Positions 17,399 through 29,271 of a stretch of 29,488 bases of DNA are shown piece by piece. The stretch lies in the IMG/VR virus record IMGVR_UViG_3300035698_012174, positions 1-29,488 of that record. One strand, written 5' to 3'. Origin of the DNA: a virus. Position numbers and translations under genes: made by a program. How positions within the stretch are numbered: position 1 is the first letter of the stretch; each line of letters starts with the position of its first letter. The notes beneath the pieces are model-generated. The model had not been told where the DNA came from, did not search any database, and worked only from the letters and a program-made list of their open reading frames with translations.

Positions 17399-18124
17399 AT
17401 GAGCCGAAAGATAGTAACAAGTCAGCCAACCGGTGAACATTTACAGCGAAAACCGGGGGGTACAATAACTTTTCGCGATGACGGGCGGGCCATCTACCGT
17501 GAGAGCTTTTATCTAGCCGATCCAGCAAGGTTGGAAACGGGAATACTTCCTCAGCGTGGGGTCTCGGCTCATCCTGATTTCAGCGAGCCCATTTGCTCCA
17601 ATGTATCTTGCCAGCGTTCCTCTGACGGGGGTTGGAATATCTCGGTCGAATACGAGACGGGGAGCTCAACGGGGTCGATCGATATTGGGGCGATATCTAG
17701 TGACGGTGTGCTTGAGGTGGTGGCCTCGGTAGCCAGCGAGTCGATTGAGACGCATCCGGACTTTGCAACAGCCTCGATGGCGGGAACACAGGGCTCACCT
17801 GCAAATGGTGCGATTTTCGATTCTGACAAACGTTTCACAGGCTGGAAGGCTGACAGTGACTTTGCGGGGGTTGATTCCTATCTAGTGCCCACGGTGATCG
17901 CCCAGCATTCCTACGCGGATAATAGTAAGCCGAGCCAAGCTCTTTTGGGGAATATCGGATCGATTCAGGTTCCGGGGCATAGCGATATAGTGACACCTGA
18001 GGGGCGTGACTGGCTATTGAGTCATGTTTCGTATTCAAGATCTGGTGATGCTTATGAAATAATGGAGGAATACACTCTTAGCGGGCCGAATGGCTGGAAT
18101 AGCGACATTTACGACTATGCCTAG
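17399..18124 (+). CDS. distal tail protein of unknown type
   Basis: 241 residues, beta-rich with alternating polar residues (SIDIGAISSDGVLEVVASV) and several HPDF motifs (SAHPDFSEP; ETHPDFATA), suggesting an internal duplication around residues 54-60 and 117-125. It comes directly after the tape measure, where distal-tail or hub-like proteins are encoded. No specific family is recognised. Confidence 0.5.
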   Translation: MSRKIVTSQPTGEHLQRKPGGTITFRDDGRAIYRESFYLADPARLETGILPQRGVSAHPDFSEPICSNVSCQRSSDGGWNISVEYETGSSTGSIDIGAISSDGVLEVVASVASESIETHPDFATASMAGTQGSPANGAIFDSDKRFTGWKADSDFAGVDSYLVPTVIAQHSYADNSKPSQALLGNIGSIQVPGHSDIVTPEGRDWLLSHVSYSRSGDAYEIMEEYTLSGPNGWNSDIYDYA

Positions 18125-20497: not shown

Positions 20498-20811
20498 TGG
20501 ATTTCATTAGTACATTTCCATCCGTTTTCGATAGTCCGTTCACGAGTCCGTTTGAGCGGATTTTTTCGGCTACTGAGGCCGGGCCTGATCCTTTGGTGTA
20601 TCTGGTTTGGAACAACTTCGAATCGGAGATGCAACGGGCGGCAACTGCCAATGGGCATATCGGCGGCGGGTATGGGGCTTTTTATGAATGGATTCTTTTC
20701 GATGGCTCAGCGTTTGGCCTTGCCAATGGCGACGCTTTCGAGGCGGCAATCACTGCGGGAACTTTAACAATCGCCAATCTGGATACATATGCGGCGGCTT
20801 ACACTCCATAA
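20497..20811 (+). CDS. small protein before the fibre gene
   Basis: 104 residues beginning at GTG 20497, overlapping the previous stop. It is aromatic-rich (DFISTFPSVFDSPFTSPFE) with a C-terminal Ala/Asp helix (EAAITAGTLTIANLDTYAAAY). Its stop is separated by one base from the fibre ATG. It may be a fibre assembly or attachment factor, as is common immediately upstream of fibre genes. This is inference. Confidence 0.45.
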   Translation: MDFISTFPSVFDSPFTSPFERIFSATEAGPDPLVYLVWNNFESEMQRAATANGHIGGGYGAFYEWILFDGSAFGLANGDAFEAAITAGTLTIANLDTYAAAYTP

Positions 20812-20812
20812 A

Positions 20813-22828
20813 ATGAATACGAACACAAAATATATTTTCCTGATTTTCTGGCTCTTTTTGTTTCCTTGCCTGTGGGCTCAGGAGGATCGCAACGCAATCT
20901 TTGAAAATGAGATGGATGAAAGCTCTGAGCTTCGCAATCTGATCGATGATGAAACGGGTACGGGGTTCATCGTTTTCAACAATTCGCCCGCGTTGGTAAC
21001 TCCTGACTTGGGCATACCGAGCGCGATCGACTTGAGCAACGCAACCGGCTTGCCTTTAGGCTCCGGGGTTATCGGTGATCTTCTTTTTTCCAACCTTGAG
21101 CAATTGGCGGCGTATTCACTTTTCCTGAACAATACAGGCAGCACGGATGATGGCGTAGGGGTTAAGGTATCGGCCTTGTCTACGGGTACATTTGGCTCAG
21201 GGGCGAAGATCCTCTATGAGGATTCGGGTGGTGTGCTTCGGGTGGCTGACTTCGACGATCTGCCAACTGGGGGTAGCGTGCCTGAGCAATTGGCGGCGTA
21301 TTCACTTTTCCTGAACAATACAGGCAGCACGGATGATGGCGTAGGGGTTAAGATATCGGCCTTGTCTACGGGTACATTTGGCTCAGGGGCGAAGGTCATC
21401 TATGAGGATTCGGGCGGGGTGCTTCGGGTGGCTGACTTCGACGATCTGCCAACTGGGGGGGTGATCGATCTGGGCACCGATGTTACCGGCGATTTGCCGT
21501 TTTCGAATCTAACTCAATTAGGGGCCTATTCTATCTTGCTAAATGATTCGGGTGGCACGGCGGATGCGTATGCGGCGAAGATTTCAGATTTGTCAAATGG
21601 TACTTTCAGCTCAGGCGATAAGTTTATTTTTGAGGAGTCAACGGGAGAACTGAGAAAGGCTGACTATGACGATTTGCCAAGCGGTGGCGGGTCGTTCGAT
21701 GGGGATCTTGAGCTTGGGGTGGCGTCGGTGATCAATCTCACGGCGGATGTCGATGACTGGAATCCAACCGGGCTGTCAACGGAAACGATTATACCTTTCA
21801 CCAGTGATGGAAATTATACGATTTCCGGCATGGCGGCAATCGCTGATGGGAAGTGGAGGTACTTGCACAATCGAAACGCGCTAGCCGGGGGTGTGATCAC
21901 TCTGGCTGAGGAAGGCACGGGCTCGATTGCTGTGAACCGTTTCAAAAATGGCACGGCCTACATTGGGCCGGGCGTCATCATGGGGGTTTACTATAGCTCA
22001 GCGGATTCGCGTTATATAGTCAAAGGCGTCCCGGTCGATGGGGCTAATTTCGATATCGACCCGGCAACGGGCAATCTGATTTTCGTGGGTGGCGGCAATG
22101 GCGATCGGGTATCGCCTCTCAACTCGGCTGAGATCGCAATCAGTACGTCAACTACTTTAACGGTATCGAGGCAGCATGCAATCACAGCGGCAAGCGATCT
22201 CACACAAACGCTTCCGGCTGTTTCTGGCAATACGGGCAAGCTGTTATCTGTGCGAGTGGTTGGCAGCTCTGCGGGCCTTGTGACGATCGACGGTGACGGA
22301 TCTGAACTTATCGACGGTGCCGCAACTCGCGTGATGTGGGCGGGGGAGTCGGCTGAGCTGTTGTGTGACGGTACTGGATGGGTGAAGATCGGCGGCAAGA
22401 CAATTGCCATGAATGCGGTAATCACTCTCACAGCCTCGCAAACGATTCCCGATGATACGGATACAAAAATCGAATACGACACTACAATAATCAATGTGGG
22501 CTCTATGACGGACATTGGAAACAATGAAATCGATATTCGCCGGGCGGGTAATTACTCTATGTTTGGCTCAGTCATTTTCGACAATCTGGAGAACACTGTT
22601 TTGATCTCCGGGCATATTTACAAGGACGCCGCTTCCTTGCGAAACATTCAGCGGTACTCAACCGGCAATGGTCGAAAGGTGAATTTGGATATTAGCGTTG
22701 CGGCGGCTCTTGCGGCGGGTGAGGTTGTATCCATGGAAATATTTCAAAATAGCGGGGTTGGCAAGGCTCCAAGGTTCTCAATGACGCTTGAGCCAACTTT
22801 GATTGTAACTGAGATACCTGTTTGGTGA
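20813..22828 (+). CDS. tail fibre with C1q-like tip and an N-terminal signal-like segment
   Basis: 671 residues from ATG 20813, one base after the previous stop; an ATG at 20789 lies inside that gene. Residues 1-22 are a Lys/hydrophobic/LWA-Q profile of a Sec signal peptide, unexpected for a virion protein. Three 62-residue repeats (about 90-153, 154-215, 228-290) each close with FDDLP or YDDLP. Next come fibre modules: DWNPTGLSTETII (about 315-405) and a strand region ending ELLCDGTGWVKIGG (about 455-527). The C-terminus (about 534-671) looks like a C1q/jelly-roll receptor-binding tip (TLTASQTIPDDTDTKIEYDT, then IDIRRAGNYSMFGSV). The fibre probably binds a surface glycan. The next gene overlaps by one base. 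Confidence 0.7.
   Translation: MNTNTKYIFLIFWLFLFPCLWAQEDRNAIFENEMDESSELRNLIDDETGTGFIVFNNSPALVTPDLGIPSAIDLSNATGLPLGSGVIGDLLFSNLEQLAAYSLFLNNTGSTDDGVGVKVSALSTGTFGSGAKILYEDSGGVLRVADFDDLPTGGSVPEQLAAYSLFLNNTGSTDDGVGVKISALSTGTFGSGAKVIYEDSGGVLRVADFDDLPTGGVIDLGTDVTGDLPFSNLTQLGAYSILLNDSGGTADAYAAKISDLSNGTFSSGDKFIFEESTGELRKADYDDLPSGGGSFDGDLELGVASVINLTADVDDWNPTGLSTETIIPFTSDGNYTISGMAAIADGKWRYLHNRNALAGGVITLAEEGTGSIAVNRFKNGTAYIGPGVIMGVYYSSADSRYIVKGVPVDGANFDIDPATGNLIFVGGGNGDRVSPLNSAEIAISTSTTLTVSRQHAITAASDLTQTLPAVSGNTGKLLSVRVVGSSAGLVTIDGDGSELIDGAATRVMWAGESAELLCDGTGWVKIGGKTIAMNAVITLTASQTIPDDTDTKIEYDTTIINVGSMTDIGNNEIDIRRAGNYSMFGSVIFDNLENTVLISGHIYKDAASLRNIQRYSTGNGRKVNLDISVAAALAAGEVVSMEIFQNSGVGKAPRFSMTLEPTLIVTEIPVW
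21098..21459 (+). repeat. recent 176-bp tandem duplication inside the fibre gene
   Basis: 21098-21273 and 21284-21459 are almost identical at the DNA level, offset by 186 bp. The few differences include AAGGTA/AAGATA, GATCCTC/GTCATC and GGTGGT/GGCGGG. A third, diverged copy of the same protein unit follows at about 21495-21685. The offset is a multiple of three, so the frame is kept. Confidence 0.9.
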
Positions 22829-25800
22829 TGAGGAATTTTGTGAAAGTATTGGGGTTCATGATGTGCTCGGCTCTCCAATTGTGGGGGGCCGAGTCTATCA
22901 ATAATGGCAAGAGTGGAATCATGCTTTCGCTTGCGGGCTCCCAGGGTACCGATTGGGAAGTGGAAAATCTCTACTATGACCGGGGCCGAATCGGGACTTG
23001 CATCATCTATATCAAGGCGGGTACGGATATCACCTATGGTCACAATTCGCTCAATCGTGCGGGCCGGGCTGATGGCTCGGACAATTATGAAACTGTCGAT
23101 ACAAGTGTGGGGGTTATCAAGTACCGGGTTGATGGTGATCAGCATTGGGAAAAATACGTGTACGATTGGCCTGTGTGGGTGAATGGAACAGATTTCAATG
23201 GGCTTGACTATGGGCTATACGGTGCGGGTGGTACCGGCGTTGTGGGCACTACTGGAAGCAATGGGGTTGCGTTGGATTCCTTGGCCTCAAAGGAAACTCA
23301 CTTCTATCGCGGGATGATTGATTCGTTTGGGGATGAGTGGCATACGCTCACGATGGCTGATGACGATATTGGATACACGTCGAATCCTGAATACCGGGCA
23401 AGTGATGGCAAGGTGTGGCTCTTTGTGGTGAATCCTAAAACGCCTTGCCTTTCGATCACTGAGGATGGAGGCCAGTTCTATACAACTCCACCGAAAAAAT
23501 ACTTCATACCGAAAATCTATGATCAAACGACCTATTTCTCTGGTACGGTCGATTTCGCTTTGAGGGATATCAATGGGAATAATGTTTTTTACCGAATCGT
23601 TGGGAACACTGGCGATGGTGATGCCTATACGGATTCGGGTGGATCGAGTGTGACCCTGGACGAAACCGATTTCGCTGATGGCCCTCAGTATTTGCAATAC
23701 TACTACGCGGGGCAGATTGCCAATACCAAGACGCGAAAGATTGTAGAAAATCCGGCATTTCCAAGCGCGGGTGAGGCTCATGGCGATCGGCTTTGGGTGA
23801 ATGCGTCCTATTGGACTTCGGACATTGCCACCGGGCTTTCAAGCGATTCAATCAAATCCTTTTGGCTGAATCGGTGGAAGGAGAATGCTGGCACGGGTGC
23901 AAAATACGGCAACGGGTATCGCTCGGTTGGCGGCGGGGATGAGCAAGCGCTCGTGGCTCGGTATCACGGAATGAATCATATAAATCCGGGTGGAAATGAT
24001 GAGGCTATATCGGTTTCTAAATCTCAAATGCTGGATACGGTTTGCATTCTCGATCCGGTTTCGATCGAAACCAACACGGAAGGCAAGGCCAATCCAACGC
24101 GGGAAATGGTGTATCGTGGATACTATGACATCAAACCAATCATTTCCTCATTGATCGCCTATGATATAATCGCCGGATACTATCGATCTGATCAGGGATA
24201 CGCTGACGGGCTGACACCGATCGAGGATCTTTTCATTCGTGATGCTTTCGCCAAGTTTGTGCATGCGTCTTTGCTTGATGTGGCGGGCTATGCCGGGCTC
24301 TTGCGGGATGCTGAGAATTTTGGTGAGATGTGGGATACGGCTCATCGGGTAGGGGCAGCGATGGCGGGTTGTATGATGCCGTCTTACTCTACTGAATACT
24401 ATGGAACAAGCGGGCTTGACGGTACCGCTACGACTTGGCCCGACAATCCGTTTGTTTCGGATGAATATACTTGGTCTGAAATATTCCTTGAGAATGGGGT
24501 GGGGTCGATTTCGGGTTTTCCGAATCTTCACAAGCGGTTTGGTTTTGGCGATGCGGATGAGTACCTTTTCACGGACAATGGGGAGTGGGGTGATCGTAGG
24601 AGCTACACGGCAACGAATCTAATGGGGCATGCCATTTATACGTATCGAAACCTGCTCACGCTGTTCAATCCTGACCGTACAATGGCAAACATGGATGCGG
24701 CGATGGTGGCGGCCTCAACAGGGCAGCTTTACGGGCTGAAAATAAGCAAGCCGGATGACGCAAATCCTCATTTTAGATCGTGGATAGGATTTCAAAATCT
24801 ATGGTATCCAGACTTCGAGGATGAGGCTGAGGAAAGAATGGCGGCCCGCTCATCGGGCGATGAGGAGTCGAAAGGAAAGCAGTATGAAAGGGGTGGCGTT
24901 CTCGCCATCCTTTGGCATCTCCACGATATTCCAAGGCCATCCGGCTCGACGGTTTCGACGCTTTCACAACCTACGTTTTCGCCGGTGGCGGGCACCTATG
25001 AGGCGGCTCAAAATGTTTCCATCACGATCGCAAATGCGGATACGATCTATTTCACAACGGATGGCTCGACTCCAACAACGGGCTCAAGTGTTTACAGCTC
25101 GGCTATTTCGGTATCATCCTCACAGACTTTGAAAGCCTTTGGTGTGGCGGCTGGATACGCCGATGGAAATGTGGGTTCCTCCTTATATGCAATCGGCATT
25201 TCCAACCCGGTCGCTTCGCCATCGGGCGGGGTGTATGGGCTCCCTCAATACGTGGCTTTAAGCGTTGGAACGGCTGGGGCTTCGATTTACTATACAACGG
25301 ATGGCTCAACGCCTGACAATTTGGATACGCTATACGATTCACCAATCGCAATCTCATCGGATACGGGCTTGAATTTCATTGCTATCAAGGCCGGGCTTGC
25401 TGATTCAAGCGTGGTTGAGGAAAGCTATGCTTTTGCTGAATATACGGCGAATAATGACGGTTGGCAGTCATTCCCGATAACCAATCAAACGAGTGAATTC
25501 GCAATCACTTTTGAGGCGACGCCTGACAATAGCCCGATAGAGGGCTTTATTGGTTTGGGCGATATTTCCACGGTGACTACTTACAGCGAAAACGCGGCTT
25601 TGATTCGGTTTTTCACTGATGGAACGATTGAGGCGTTTGATTCAGCGGGTGTGGGCAATCCCAACAATGGGGGGGCTTGGTACTACAAGGATTCAACGCT
25701 TAATTACTTGGCGGATACGCGATATGATTTCCGACTTGTGGTCGATCCTGTTGCGGGCACCTATGATGTATTTGTAACGCCTGAGGGTGGGAGCGAATCG

Positions 25801-26268
25801 CTAGTTGTTGATGATTACGCATTCAGAGATGCGGCAACGAATATCGACACGATTTCTTTTTTCTGTCTATCCGATGACGCGATTGTGATAAACAATCTTA
25901 GCCTTGGAACGCCGGGTGCGGCGACGCTCGCTCTTTCGAATCCGGTGCTCAGTGAGGATGGCTTGACGATCGTGGCGGATATAGTGGGCGGCAATGGATT
26001 CTATACACCGGGAACGGGCATTACGGGGCTCACAGTGAGTCACGGGGGAATCGCGGCAAGCATTTCATCCGCAACAATCGCGGGCACAAGGCTAACAATC
26101 ACACTTGGCGATGCTGTCAATGGCGGTGTGTGGATCGATATGGATCTTTCGTCCGGCTCGAATATCCGTGATGGAAACAATGATACACCAACCAATCAGA
26201 ATGATTTGCTGATTAAAAATGAGTCTGAGGCAAATGTGGGATACTTTCGAAATAATCTAGCACTATGA
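22828..26268 (+). CDS. large multidomain secreted-type protein with chitobiase-C-like repeats
   Basis: 1146 residues from the ATG overlapping the fibre stop (TGATG). It starts with a signal-like segment (VKVLGFMMCSALQLWGAES). Residues about 25-300 are beta-rich and unidentified. About 320-700 are helix-rich with aromatic and acidic residues (IKPIISSLIAYDIIAGYY at 434; FAKFVHASLLDVAGYAGLL at 472) and may be an alpha/alpha-toroid of polysaccharide lyases; this is weak. Two CHB_HEX_C-type modules (about 712-790, 791-869) each contain IYFTTDGSTP or IYYTTDGSTP. Then come a LamG-like sandwich (871-1030) and a Gly-rich SwmB-like end. The architecture fits a glycan-binding, perhaps glycan-cutting, adsorption protein. 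The next gene overlaps (ATGA). Confidence 0.6.
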   Translation: MRNFVKVLGFMMCSALQLWGAESINNGKSGIMLSLAGSQGTDWEVENLYYDRGRIGTCIIYIKAGTDITYGHNSLNRAGRADGSDNYETVDTSVGVIKYRVDGDQHWEKYVYDWPVWVNGTDFNGLDYGLYGAGGTGVVGTTGSNGVALDSLASKETHFYRGMIDSFGDEWHTLTMADDDIGYTSNPEYRASDGKVWLFVVNPKTPCLSITEDGGQFYTTPPKKYFIPKIYDQTTYFSGTVDFALRDINGNNVFYRIVGNTGDGDAYTDSGGSSVTLDETDFADGPQYLQYYYAGQIANTKTRKIVENPAFPSAGEAHGDRLWVNASYWTSDIATGLSSDSIKSFWLNRWKENAGTGAKYGNGYRSVGGGDEQALVARYHGMNHINPGGNDEAISVSKSQMLDTVCILDPVSIETNTEGKANPTREMVYRGYYDIKPIISSLIAYDIIAGYYRSDQGYADGLTPIEDLFIRDAFAKFVHASLLDVAGYAGLLRDAENFGEMWDTAHRVGAAMAGCMMPSYSTEYYGTSGLDGTATTWPDNPFVSDEYTWSEIFLENGVGSISGFPNLHKRFGFGDADEYLFTDNGEWGDRRSYTATNLMGHAIYTYRNLLTLFNPDRTMANMDAAMVAASTGQLYGLKISKPDDANPHFRSWIGFQNLWYPDFEDEAEERMAARSSGDEESKGKQYERGGVLAILWHLHDIPRPSGSTVSTLSQPTFSPVAGTYEAAQNVSITIANADTIYFTTDGSTPTTGSSVYSSAISVSSSQTLKAFGVAAGYADGNVGSSLYAIGISNPVASPSGGVYGLPQYVALSVGTAGASIYYTTDGSTPDNLDTLYDSPIAISSDTGLNFIAIKAGLADSSVVEESYAFAEYTANNDGWQSFPITNQTSEFAITFEATPDNSPIEGFIGLGDISTVTTYSENAALIRFFTDGTIEAFDSAGVGNPNNGGAWYYKDSTLNYLADTRYDFRLVVDPVAGTYDVFVTPEGGSESLVVDDYAFRDAATNIDTISFFCLSDDAIVINNLSLGTPGAATLALSNPVLSEDGLTIVADIVGGNGFYTPGTGITGLTVSHGGIAASISSATIAGTRLTITLGDAVNGGVWIDMDLSSGSNIRDGNNDTPTNQNDLLIKNESEANVGYFRNNLAL

Positions 26269-27002
26269 AAAAAGCAATCGCTCTCCTGGTATTCGTAATA
26301 ATTGGGCCGATATTCGGCAGTTGGATCGTGCGTGAGGCGGCTGTGGATACATATGCGGAACTTGTCGAGGAAACGGCGGTTGCATATTACAAGCTTTCTG
26401 AGGGGGCGGGGTCTCTCGCTGATGCGATGGGTGGAACTGCGTTGACTGTCTCGGGTTCTCCAATCTATGGTCAGCCTGGCTTGATTCCTTCTGACGCGGG
26501 GACTTCGATTGCTTTCTCATCGGGTTCGTATGCGAGTGTTGGTGAGGATTTGGGGATTTCGGGATACCCGTTTTCGTTTGAATTCATCACAGAGACAACT
26601 AGCGGTGCAAGAGATGTGATAGTGTTTCTCGGTGATGACGCTGTGGAGCGCACGTATAGTGCGGCCTATATAGAAAATGGAAACAATGCGTTTAGCGCGT
26701 CGATCCGAAATAGCAGTCTAATACACACAAATTCAACTACGGCGGGAAATGATGGCTCGGCTCATCATGTGGTGTGCAATTACAATTCTGCGACTGATAG
26801 AGAGGTTTTTGTGGATGGTGTCAGTAGGGGAACTCAAACAGACAGTGTGGCGTTTCCTGTGCCGAATCGTTTTGCGATCGCGGCCTTGCGTTCTAGTAGT
26901 CCGGGCGACTATTACAGTGGGACCGTTCAGCATGTATCGGTGCATGATGTGGCTTTGTCTCAATCTCAGATTTCAGAAAGGTTTGCCGCAACTGGATTGT
27001 GA
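26265..27002 (+). CDS. LamG-like concanavalin-fold protein with signal-like N-terminus
   Basis: 245 residues. A KK-plus-hydrophobic start (KKAIALLVFVIIGPIFGSW) suggests export or a membrane anchor; no clean cleavage motif is visible. The body matches LamG_3/laminin-G-like proteins: AYYKLSEGAGSLADA at about residue 40, ITETTSGARDVIVFLGD, VVCNYNSATDREVFVDGVSRG, and the closing VHDVALSQSQISERFAATGL. Such domains bind carbohydrate or other surface ligands. It is a stand-alone copy of the fold also seen within its upstream neighbour, next to the lyase-like gene. Confidence 0.7.
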   Translation: MKKAIALLVFVIIGPIFGSWIVREAAVDTYAELVEETAVAYYKLSEGAGSLADAMGGTALTVSGSPIYGQPGLIPSDAGTSIAFSSGSYASVGEDLGISGYPFSFEFITETTSGARDVIVFLGDDAVERTYSAAYIENGNNAFSASIRNSSLIHTNSTTAGNDGSAHHVVCNYNSATDREVFVDGVSRGTQTDSVAFPVPNRFAIAALRSSSPGDYYSGTVQHVSVHDVALSQSQISERFAATGL

Positions 27003-28234
27003 TGAGGTGGGTTTTTGTAATATTTATTTGTATTGGTCGATGGGGTCTGTATGCGTCTGATGGAGACTTGGCGGCATCCGTGGGACCGGTATTGTATGCG
27101 GCCAACGATAGTGAGCTGACGAGTCAGCTTGCGGCTTCGAATCCGGGTCAGCATGTGGTTTTAACTGGTACGGTTTATGATGAAAACAGGGTGTTATATG
27201 AGGGTGACGTTGTTGTTGGTGCGGATATAAATGATCCTCCTGTGGTCGATGCTAAATACACATTCAGCGGTGCTGATAGTGGTGTGTATGGTCTGGATTT
27301 CGATGGGGGTTGGATTGTGATGGAGGGCGATAGGGCCTTTATCAAGAGATGTTGGATACATTCTATGGGGGCTCAAGTGCCGATCGCAATCGATGATGGT
27401 GATCATGTTGTGGTGGCCAATAATGAGGTTTACAATTGGGGGAATACGAGTGATTGCGGGGCAAGGCGGGGGATTAGAATTAGAGCGCCAAAACCCGGTG
27501 ACCATGATGGGGCTAGATGGCCTAGGATCTCCTGGAACTACATAAGAGATCAAGTGAATTTCAATCCTGAGTCTTGCTCGCCTGATGCTGAAGTCATCTC
27601 TGTGGGGTATGGTGGTTCGGCTCAGCGGGGGCAAAGTGAGTTAGGAGCTTGGATACATCACAATTTTCTTGTGAATTGCGGGGGAGATAAAGAGGGGATA
27701 GGTGTGAAGGCGTCATACAATACGATTGAGTTCAATCACTTGAACGGCCTGAGGGGCTTTAATAATCGCCACGGTGGTTTCAATGTCTATCGAGGCAATC
27801 GGATTGAGAATATCGATGGATCTGGGAAGCGGCACAATCGAGGGGGTGAGCAAAATTGGTCTATAGGTGAGGTGACTAGTGGTGAGTTTCAAGTGGAGAG
27901 CGGCTGGTACAATTTTGGCGAAACGCATGGTGATGCGGGAACGTATATGAGATCGAATGACACTCGAATTATCGGATCTGTGGCGGCGGATTTTGAGATT
28001 GGTGTGGATAGGGGCAATTTGTATGCAATCAATACGCTGATTGAGGCAACCAACAAGGCTCCACTTTTATTGAGCAATCAATCAGGTACGATCAATGATT
28101 GGGATCAATCGGCATCCGTCACGGTTCCCACGGCTATCACGCTCACGGCTGACGATGTAGGGCCGCTGGCTTCGGTGAGTGAACCTGAACCTGAGCCTGA
28201 GCCTAAAACCAATAGAAAACTAATCGCTCTTTGA
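27002..28234 (+). CDS. PL6-like polysaccharide lyase with signal-like N-terminus
   Basis: 410 residues from ATG 27002; GTG 26999 adds one, and numbering here counts from it. Signal-like start ending LYAS. Residues 35-60 (NPGQHVVLTGTVYDE) match the opening of PL6 beta-helix lyases (NPGDxIxLxxGxY). Then AEVISVG (197-203), a glycan/Ca-site segment GGDKEGIGVKASYN with Asp230, Glu232 and Lys237, and NNRHGGFNVYRGNRI with Arg257. In chondroitinase B the Ca ligands E243/E245 precede the catalytic K250 and R271 with the same D/E-x-E-x4-K spacing. Arg lies 20 rather than 21 residues after Lys. Family substrates are alginate or dermatan/chondroitin-type acidic glycans. The C-terminus has an EPEPEPEP linker. 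Confidence 0.65.
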   Translation: MRWVFVIFICIGRWGLYASDGDLAASVGPVLYAANDSELTSQLAASNPGQHVVLTGTVYDENRVLYEGDVVVGADINDPPVVDAKYTFSGADSGVYGLDFDGGWIVMEGDRAFIKRCWIHSMGAQVPIAIDDGDHVVVANNEVYNWGNTSDCGARRGIRIRAPKPGDHDGARWPRISWNYIRDQVNFNPESCSPDAEVISVGYGGSAQRGQSELGAWIHHNFLVNCGGDKEGIGVKASYNTIEFNHLNGLRGFNNRHGGFNVYRGNRIENIDGSGKRHNRGGEQNWSIGEVTSGEFQVESGWYNFGETHGDAGTYMRSNDTRIIGSVAADFEIGVDRGNLYAINTLIEATNKAPLLLSNQSGTINDWDQSASVTVPTAITLTADDVGPLASVSEPEPEPEPKTNRKLIAL

Positions 28235-28235
28235 T

Positions 28236-28484
28236 ATGAATGAGGAAACTTTGAGGAAATCATCTATGCGGGTGATGTGCAACCGGCTCAATTTATTCAC
28301 GGTGATTGCGGCTTACGGCACGTTGGCGCTTATCGTGTATTTGTGTGTTGGTGACGTGGAGATCGATGACGGCCACAAGTGGCTTGTGGGTGAATTGATT
28401 GGATTGATCGTGCTTTCTCAAACTATCGCGAGCGGTGGTAAGGTGTTGCAAAAGCATGCTGAGGTGAAAGGGGGTCACGGATGA
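28236..28484 (+). CDS. two-span holin-like membrane protein
   Basis: 82 residues with hydrophobic segments at about 19-39 (LFTVIAAYGTLALIVYLCVG) and 49-68 (WLVGELIGLIVLSQTIASGG), a charged N-terminus and a His/Gly-rich tail. Size and two spans match class II holins. It starts one base after the lyase stop and overlaps the next membrane gene (ATGA), forming a three-gene membrane block. Its direct partner enzyme is not visible. Confidence 0.5.
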   Translation: MNEETLRKSSMRVMCNRLNLFTVIAAYGTLALIVYLCVGDVEIDDGHKWLVGELIGLIVLSQTIASGGKVLQKHAEVKGGHG

Positions 28485-28939
28485 TCGAGCTTTTGGTATC
28501 GCTTTTTTCGGTGGCGGGCTCGGCGGGATTTGGCAGTTTTCTCAAGATTGTTGCCGGGGTTTTCGAAGGCAGAACCAATCGGAAGCTCGCGGCTGTGGGG
28601 GCGATGCGATCGGATGCGGTTGCGTTTCAGCGGGCGGTTTTTGGAGGCAATAGCAAAACCTCGCGATCAAGCGCTTTCACTCGGAGAATTTTGGCGATCA
28701 TGCTTGTGGGACTGATCGTTTTCGTGGGTTCGTACGGGGTGATCAATCCCGGCACGGAGTTCACAACATTTCTAATGCCTGAGATGAAAAACGGGTTTTC
28801 GTTTCTGTGGGGGTTTTTAAAGTTTCCCACTACAAAGGAAGTGACCGTCATTTTGACCACCGGGCATCTATCTCTAATGGCTATCAATATCGCGGCGATC
28901 AGCGTGGGTTTCTATTTTACACCTGTTGGGCAAAAGTGA
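28481..28939 (+). CDS. three-span membrane protein, holin/antiholin-like
   Basis: 152 residues. A hydrophobic start (IELLVSLFSVAGSAGFGSFL) is followed by a basic middle, then spans near 68-86 (RILAIMLVGLIVFVGSYGV) and 122-146 (VTVILTTGHLSLMAINIAAISVGFYF). The opening resembles the holin-like 3TM proteins of marine phages, a recollected resemblance only. Coupled to both neighbours by overlaps (ATGA before, TGATG after). Confidence 0.5.
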   Translation: MIELLVSLFSVAGSAGFGSFLKIVAGVFEGRTNRKLAAVGAMRSDAVAFQRAVFGGNSKTSRSSAFTRRILAIMLVGLIVFVGSYGVINPGTEFTTFLMPEMKNGFSFLWGFLKFPTTKEVTVILTTGHLSLMAINIAAISVGFYFTPVGQK

Positions 28940-29271
28940 TGAGTGAAAAAAATCAAAACCAGCTAACTGAGAATACGCTCGTTCATTTGGGAACTGTGGC
29001 TGTAGTGGTTTGCTGTCTAGTTACCATAACGTGGAAAATCTCGGCTTGGGGGACGGAAATGACAAACAGGCTCCTGCAAATCGATGAGTCGGTGAAAAAA
29101 TTAACTGTCAATACTCGAACCATGGGTGATGCGCTGGATAGAAAGCGTGACCGGGGGCCTCAGGATTTCACGCGGGCTCAGGCCGATTTGTTCTTGAGGG
29201 ATGTTTCGGATCTGAACAGCCTGGAATTGCCTGACATTTGGGGCGATCGATATGATCCAAAGGACTATTAA
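28939..29271 (+). CDS. single-span membrane protein with coiled coil, spanin-like
   Basis: 110 residues from ATG 28939 (TGATG with the previous stop); an in-frame ATG at 28807 overlaps too deeply. Hydrophobic segment at about 16-34 (LGTVAVVVCCLVTITWKIS), then a charged helical region (TNRLLQIDESVKKLTVNTRTM) and an acidic C-terminus. One N-terminal span plus periplasmic helix is the i-spanin layout; no outer lipoprotein partner is seen, so the call is tentative. It is the last gene before the 217-bp non-coding end. Confidence 0.45.
   Translation: MSEKNQNQLTENTLVHLGTVAVVVCCLVTITWKISAWGTEMTNRLLQIDESVKKLTVNTRTMGDALDRKRDRGPQDFTRAQADLFLRDVSDLNSLELPDIWGDRYDPKDY

Follow-up and report, generated by a model that had tools for sequence, protein, structure and literature searches.

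Predicted signal peptides on four consecutive adsorption-type proteins of a P8625-like siphovirus and on fibre genes of other phages

Results

A cassette of four genes between the tail and lysis genes

The DNA that we analysed (hereafter, the window) is a single virus record of 29,488 bases (IMGVR_UViG_3300035698_012174) that holds 34 genes and in which we found no terminal repeat. By its sequence the virus is a siphovirus akin to Verrucomicrobia phage P8625: its portal is 30% identical to the P8625 portal, about 34% identical to those of a set of IMG/VR contigs and 29% identical to that of a contig of an Opitutae MAG. The terminase, portal and tape measure were identified through PHROGs, and the capsid gene matched prophages; neither the terminase nor the 1146-aa protein described below had any relative in the viral contigs searched.

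Gene order and synteny place the four genes studied here (Table 1) after the tape measure and tip genes and before the lysis genes, and each overlaps or abuts its predecessor (TAAA-ATG, TGATG, ATGA and TGATG). The tail protein that directly follows the tape measure has homologues kept in Verrucomicrobiota prophages, where it marks a syntenic slot in which fibre genes, tagged with a predicted signal peptide or untagged, come next. Since the interval from the tape measure to the cassette encodes only small proteins (375 aa or less), the phage without its cassette would have no obvious large receptor-binding protein. Among the presumed lysis genes behind the cassette, the product of the gene at 28481 matched an ORF of a prophage (L077) at 27%. 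We recognised no endolysin anywhere in the window, and the text on P8625 likewise mentions none (PMC4642752).

Table 1. Features of the window. Signal peptide (SP) scores are from the n-h-c model described in the text; a slash marks the predicted cleavage site.
Feature	Position	Strand	Basis or remark
Tail protein right after tape measure	17399..18124	+	Matches L090, L091, L092, L093, L122, L126, L127
Fibre protein, 671 aa, SP 1-22 (LWA/Q)	20813..22828	+	SP score 13.8
Predicted Sec signal peptide of fibre	20813..20878	+	n-h-c model and direct reading
1146-aa protein, SP 1-21	22828..26268	+	SP score 9.9
LamG/ConA-like protein, 245 aa, signal-like start	26265..27002	+	SP score 11.1
Probable right-handed beta-helix, PL6/chondroitinase-B-like, 410 aa, SP 1-18 (LYA/S)	27002..28234	+	SP score 7.3
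Three small membrane proteins, presumed lysis module (two holin-like, one spanin-like)	28236..29271	+	

Only the first of the four proteins resembles known fibres. Residues 31-156 match podo- and myovirus fibres, the C-terminal domain (residues 475-671) matches a tail protein of a viral contig (L002; 30%), and the protein matched a PHROG of virion structural proteins (phrog_13989; E 1.6e-5). Just past its signal this protein carries the motif GTGxxVFxNSPxLVTPxLG, which is widespread in phage fibres, followed by repeats; in other phages this motif is set back by 52 to 222 residues, behind an untagged N-terminal part. A stretch of roughly 170-180 bases also occurs twice in the fibre gene as near-identical direct copies (window 21100-21460; LEQLAAYSLFLNNTGSTDDGVGVK...FDDLPTGG), probably a recent repeat expansion.

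For the other three proteins we found no similarity to virion proteins except weak LamG PHROG matches. The 1146-aa protein consists of a predicted signal peptide, about 680 aa without a known fold, two CHB_HEX_C/Fn3_assoc repeats and a LamG-like C-terminal region. The CHB_HEX_C domain (PF13290; E 2.8e-34; 117.3 bits against a cut-off of 22) and the LamG domain of the next protein (Laminin_G_3, PF13385; E 4.5e-13; 50 bits against a cut-off of 27.6) both exceeded the curated cut-offs, in agreement with the domain calls of the earlier note. Residues 702-1014 of the 1146-aa protein (window about 24930-25870) form a region common to large cellular proteins of Opitutales, and this C-terminal sharing suggests that surface-protein modules have been exchanged between phage and host. 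The earlier note had also called the fourth protein PL6-like, which is only suggestive: the protein resembled a PL6 structure (6qps) at E 0.059, but scored 15.2 bits against Chondroitinas_B (PF14592), under the cut-off of 24.

Sequence searches of the PDB with the fibre and the 1146-aa protein returned no match, and neither the fibre nor the lyase-like protein had relatives in 223 genomes of the order. Structures predicted by AlphaFold from single sequences were unusable both for the first 707 residues of the mature 1146-aa protein (pLDDT 31.6) and for the mature lyase-like protein (pLDDT 32.6). The idea that the proteins are exported because their folding depends on disulphides formed in the periplasm was unsupported, as the four mature proteins hold just 1, 5, 1 and 4 cysteines, in gene order.

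All four proteins begin with signal-like segments

The earlier note had observed that all four proteins begin with secretion-signal-like segments and that four in a row would be unlikely by chance; the starts it gave for them (20813, 22828, 26265 and 27002) are those used here. The likely cleavage sites lie after MNTNTKYIFLIFWLFLFPCLWA and before QEDRN in the fibre, between MRNFVKVLGFMMCSALQLWGA and ESINN in the 1146-aa protein, between MKKAIALLVFVIIGPIFG and SWIVR in the LamG protein, and between MRWVFVIFICIGRWGLYA and SDGDL in the lyase-like protein. We scored all genes of the window with a simple home-made log-odds model of the n-region, h-region and c-region of signal peptides (the n-h-c model). 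The four cassette proteins received the top four of the 34 scores, ahead of a spanin-like transmembrane protein (6.9) and the next gene (6.0), in a model that gives transmembrane segments high scores too and does not tell cleaved signals from transmembrane anchors. According to this model, all four proteins have the features of Sec substrates cut by signal peptidase I, namely a basic n-region, a hydrophobic core and small residues at -3 and -1. The -3/-1 rule is weak in the 1146-aa protein and in the LamG protein; the latter lacks AxA (IFG/S), its start being very hydrophobic and its cleavage site weak. The signal of the lyase-like protein is the weakest of the four, with an arginine within the hydrophobic stretch.

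The earlier observation held up. Scores of 7.3 or more occurred at 0.48% of 6,247 internal positions of the window proteins, so that four specified genes would all reach this score by chance with a probability of about 5e-10; by rank alone, adjacency of the top four among 34 genes has P = 7e-4. Residue shuffles equalled the observed score in 0, 0.4, 0 and 1.8% of cases (fibre, 1146-aa, LamG and lyase-like protein, respectively). Alternative upstream starts at 20789, 22822 and 26999 retained the signal. For calibration, Lom and Bor, two lambda proteins known to be exported, scored 13.6, and sixteen fibre and tail proteins of nine reference phages (lambda, P22, T7, B124-14, P2559S, 11b, P12002L, phi38:1 and P8625) scored 3.4 or less. 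As background for the host group, 84 of 298 ORFs from 20 stretches of 20 kb in four genomes reached 7, and many of these signals end in A/Q, as does that of the window fibre.

Tagged fibre, tailspike and lectin genes recur in other phages

Beyond the window, at least six phage or prophage groups carry signal-tagged genes for fibres, tailspikes or lectins, frequently in runs of two to four. One group consists of Opitutae-type viral contigs, four are different kinds of prophage in Verrucomicrobiota, and another comprises contigs whose signals are in the Bacteroidota style. The prophage survey, which used mechanical gene calls and covered the phylum of the Opitutae MAG with the related portal, yielded a tagged cassette in about 5 of 32 Verrucomicrobiota prophage regions. 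PEP-CTERM genes in two regions (L081 and L094) and a heparinase-like gene in a third (L130) were left out of the tagged set because they are possibly host genes.

In five Opitutae-type contigs with related portals (L013, L016, L018, L019 and L037), a large tailspike opens with MGRMIRFF[IT]ILFLLSA[AS]CFA/QVKQWHLTNTT, with small variants (MGS in L037; L at position 8 in some). A near-invariant signal peptide and about 15 mature residues stand ahead of differing enzyme domains (pectate-lyase-like; GH28/beta-helix; GDSL plus K1-lyase_C). This signal peptide is under purifying selection (pS 0.21-0.48, pN 0.04-0.09). A constant N-terminus in front of exchangeable enzymes is characteristic of virion-docked spikes.

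Two prophages from different genomes of the same phylum (G516 and G409) carry a tagged tail fibre (phrog_11393) followed by two more tagged genes. In this fibre pN was 0.36 in the signal peptide and 0.06 right after A/QN, the pattern to be expected of a signal that is removed and needs to keep no more than its general character. Two tagged proteins that lack a family match lie behind a tagged fibre in L092 (14187-15706) and are kept, with their signals, in L093; possibly they are exported chaperones or fibre companions. The G409 prophage encodes an extra tagged protein of 440 aa with an adhesin-like start (YQGRLTDSSG) amid its head genes (L093:4356-5678).

The other prophage kinds carry different bodies. 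That of G010 encodes a tagged homologue of C-type-lectin antireceptors (phrog_2889) with a tagged companion, and that of G029 a LamG protein with a signal-like start in the same slot as the window cassette, behind a homologue of the tail protein at 17399. The prophage of G480 has, in a row, a tagged tail fibre (phrog_24210), a tagged beta-helix protein, a tagged 115-aa protein and a lipoprotein; this row closely parallels the window cassette, but no homology between the two was detected. A 38-kb viral contig has a run of four tagged genes (L188:4265-11009) between tail and holin-like genes, one of them for a collagen-like tail fibre (phrog_819; E 2.9e-61); another contig (L181) has two tagged genes ahead of lysis-like genes, one of which matches a tail protein. 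Signals in both contigs resemble Bacteroidota Q-rule signals, a style from which we infer a probable Bacteroidota host. One tagged gene of the 38-kb contig encodes a 356-aa protein with a metalloprotease-like HHEGFHC motif.

Small lipoproteins with a Cys lipobox were also seen near fibre genes (L013:12909-13277, L121:10021-10452, L126:5075-5503 and L122:16935-17780), and are possible o-spanins.

Most related fibres are untagged

The earlier note had proposed a check of the N-termini of homologues, and this gave a mixed answer. Among relatives of the G480 fibre in viral contigs, 34 of 35 had no signal, the exception being in L181, but the independent tagged examples above do exist. Because 34 of 35 homologous fibre bodies are untagged, we consider the tag to be a derived, added state, and from the sequences it seems to have been gained on several occasions.

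P8625, a lytic siphovirus that infects a Puniceicoccales strain, resembles the window virus in its run of terminase, portal, Clp-like protease, capsid, tape measure, fibre and LamG genes followed by membrane genes (NC_029047; PMC4642752). In contrast to the window proteins, its fibre (gp22) and LamG protein (gp24), in the same slot, had no signals by the n-h-c model, and its authors reported signal peptides in no protein (PMC4642752). Thus, related phages differ in the tag, which is not a feature of the lineage.

Discussion

Tail fibres are taken to be assembled in the cytoplasm, and predicted signal peptides on four adjacent adsorption-type proteins raise the question of where these proteins act. 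The reading that we prefer, though we give it no more than even weight, is that the four proteins form a late adsorption cassette (a fibre, a large protein that probably binds or cuts glycans, a LamG lectin and a lyase-like protein with a beta-helix) exported by the host Sec system, with the fibres docking at lysis and the enzymes perhaps also acting free. Each protein would carry a cleavable signal peptide and be exported by host Sec; the mature proteins would accumulate outside the cytoplasm ahead of lysis; fibre-type proteins would then dock on tails while virions exit the cell through breached membranes; and the lyase and the lectin might in addition work unattached, stripping away or occupying the glycans near the dying cell. 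Since tails themselves assemble in the cytoplasm, exported fibres would need this putative late docking step. Cleavage, Sec export, a periplasmic or surface location and the functions of the four proteins are predictions from sequence. Export by the infected cell is supported by the tripartite Sec-type signals, by their independent recurrence and by the change of constraint at the predicted cleavage site. Docking is favoured by the fibre-type bodies, the conserved mature N-termini and the lack of another large receptor-binding protein in the window, and free action on glycans by the lyase-like and host-like proteins. Against this reading stand the untagged proteins of P8625 in the same slot and the modest share of tagged prophage regions.

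It is possible, and we hold this tentatively, that the exported proteins stay off the virion altogether and act free or at the cell surface, as morons in a tail operon in the manner of lambda lom; they might degrade exopolysaccharide so that progeny escape, mask receptors on debris or on the infected cell, or block superinfection. The lyase-like and CHB_HEX/LamG proteins do resemble secreted host enzymes and have modules in common with Opitutales proteins, the gene for exported Lom sits among the lambda tail genes, and Porphyromonas gingivalis phages encode Sec-signal proteins with no assigned virion role (PMC10367356). However, the tagged proteins include typical virion parts (tail-fibre PHROGs, a homologue of DGR-type antireceptors, and K1-lyase_C tailspikes with a constant N-terminus before interchangeable enzymes), and the window shows no second large receptor-binding protein. 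The earlier note had set export beside an unusual anchoring of the proteins to the tail, and of these two it is export that gained support. An uncleaved hydrophobic N-terminus holding the protein in the tail tip or a membrane would suit the start of the LamG protein, with its weak cleavage site, and the n-h-c model is blind to the difference between anchor and signal; but the fibre, the 1146-aa protein and the lyase-like protein have a small residue at -1 and usually at -3, the shift of constraint in the G516/G409 fibre falls exactly at the predicted cleavage site, and the fibres of related and reference phages have no hydrophobic start. We therefore judge an uncleaved anchor unlikely, except perhaps for the LamG protein.

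Lysogenic conversion, also raised in the earlier note, would make these host-surface genes of a temperate phage that are expressed by the lysogen. Tagged cassettes of this kind do occur in Verrucomicrobiota prophages, but we found neither an integrase nor a repressor among the ORFs of the window (a record that is perhaps partial), the nearest cultured relative, P8625, is lytic, and the cassette genes overlap and are co-directional with those for tail and lysis, an arrangement suggestive of late expression; we consider this explanation very improbable. We give hardly any credence to chance hydrophobic starts or wrong start codons: the starts were called from sequence alone and the score of the lyase-like protein is modest, but the probability computed for four of four genes, the conservation and recurrence of signals elsewhere, and the upstream starts that still give a signal all stand against it.

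Phage-encoded Sec substrates as such are already known. Lambda Lom and Bor and the Sec-exported endolysin Lys44 of fOg44 (PMC6116005) have cleavable signals that use host Sec, as predicted here. None of them (an outer-membrane protein, a lipoprotein and an endolysin, respectively) is a fibre or receptor-binding body, however, and they do not form a run of four. The Q-rule proteins of P. gingivalis phages have Sec signals that expose an N-terminal glutamine (compare A/QED and A/QVK here), although these are unassigned in function and unconnected there to tail fibres (PMC10367356). Tailspikes of the P22 gp9 and K1-lyase type similarly have beta-helix or other enzyme bodies that can be swapped behind a constant N-terminus, and K1-lyase_C occurs in one of the tagged tailspikes (L018); in those spikes, however, the virion-docking domain comes first, whereas the tagged ones put a Sec signal ahead. 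DGR antireceptors with a C-type-lectin fold (VHML, ACA1, Bise) align with one prophage protein (L079) over its C-terminal two thirds, but those of Bise and ACA1 are untagged and the G010 protein is tagged; phage DGR proteins have been stated to be without signal peptides (PMC6199706). Full-text searches of the open-access literature turned up no description of signal peptides as a recurring feature of tail fibres, which is weak evidence of novelty.

These observations suggest that some phages send their cell-binding and sugar-cutting parts outside rather than building them in from the start. It is a further and tentative step that in several phage lineages of Verrucomicrobiota, and probably of Bacteroidota, the receptor-binding fibres start out as Sec preproteins, reach their mature form beyond the cytoplasm and join the tails no earlier than lysis; tails would then be completed outside the cytoplasm, an arrangement evolved repeatedly by placing host-type signals before ordinary fibre bodies. 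The shared element would be that proteins meeting the cell surface are exported ahead of lysis. Annotation pipelines may label such phage genes as secreted host proteins. If true for two large phyla, either virions are completed outside the cytoplasm or fibre-type proteins are spent as free extracellular tools, and either outcome would alter the interpretation of host range, depolymerase halos and phage ecology for marine and gut bacteria that have received little study.
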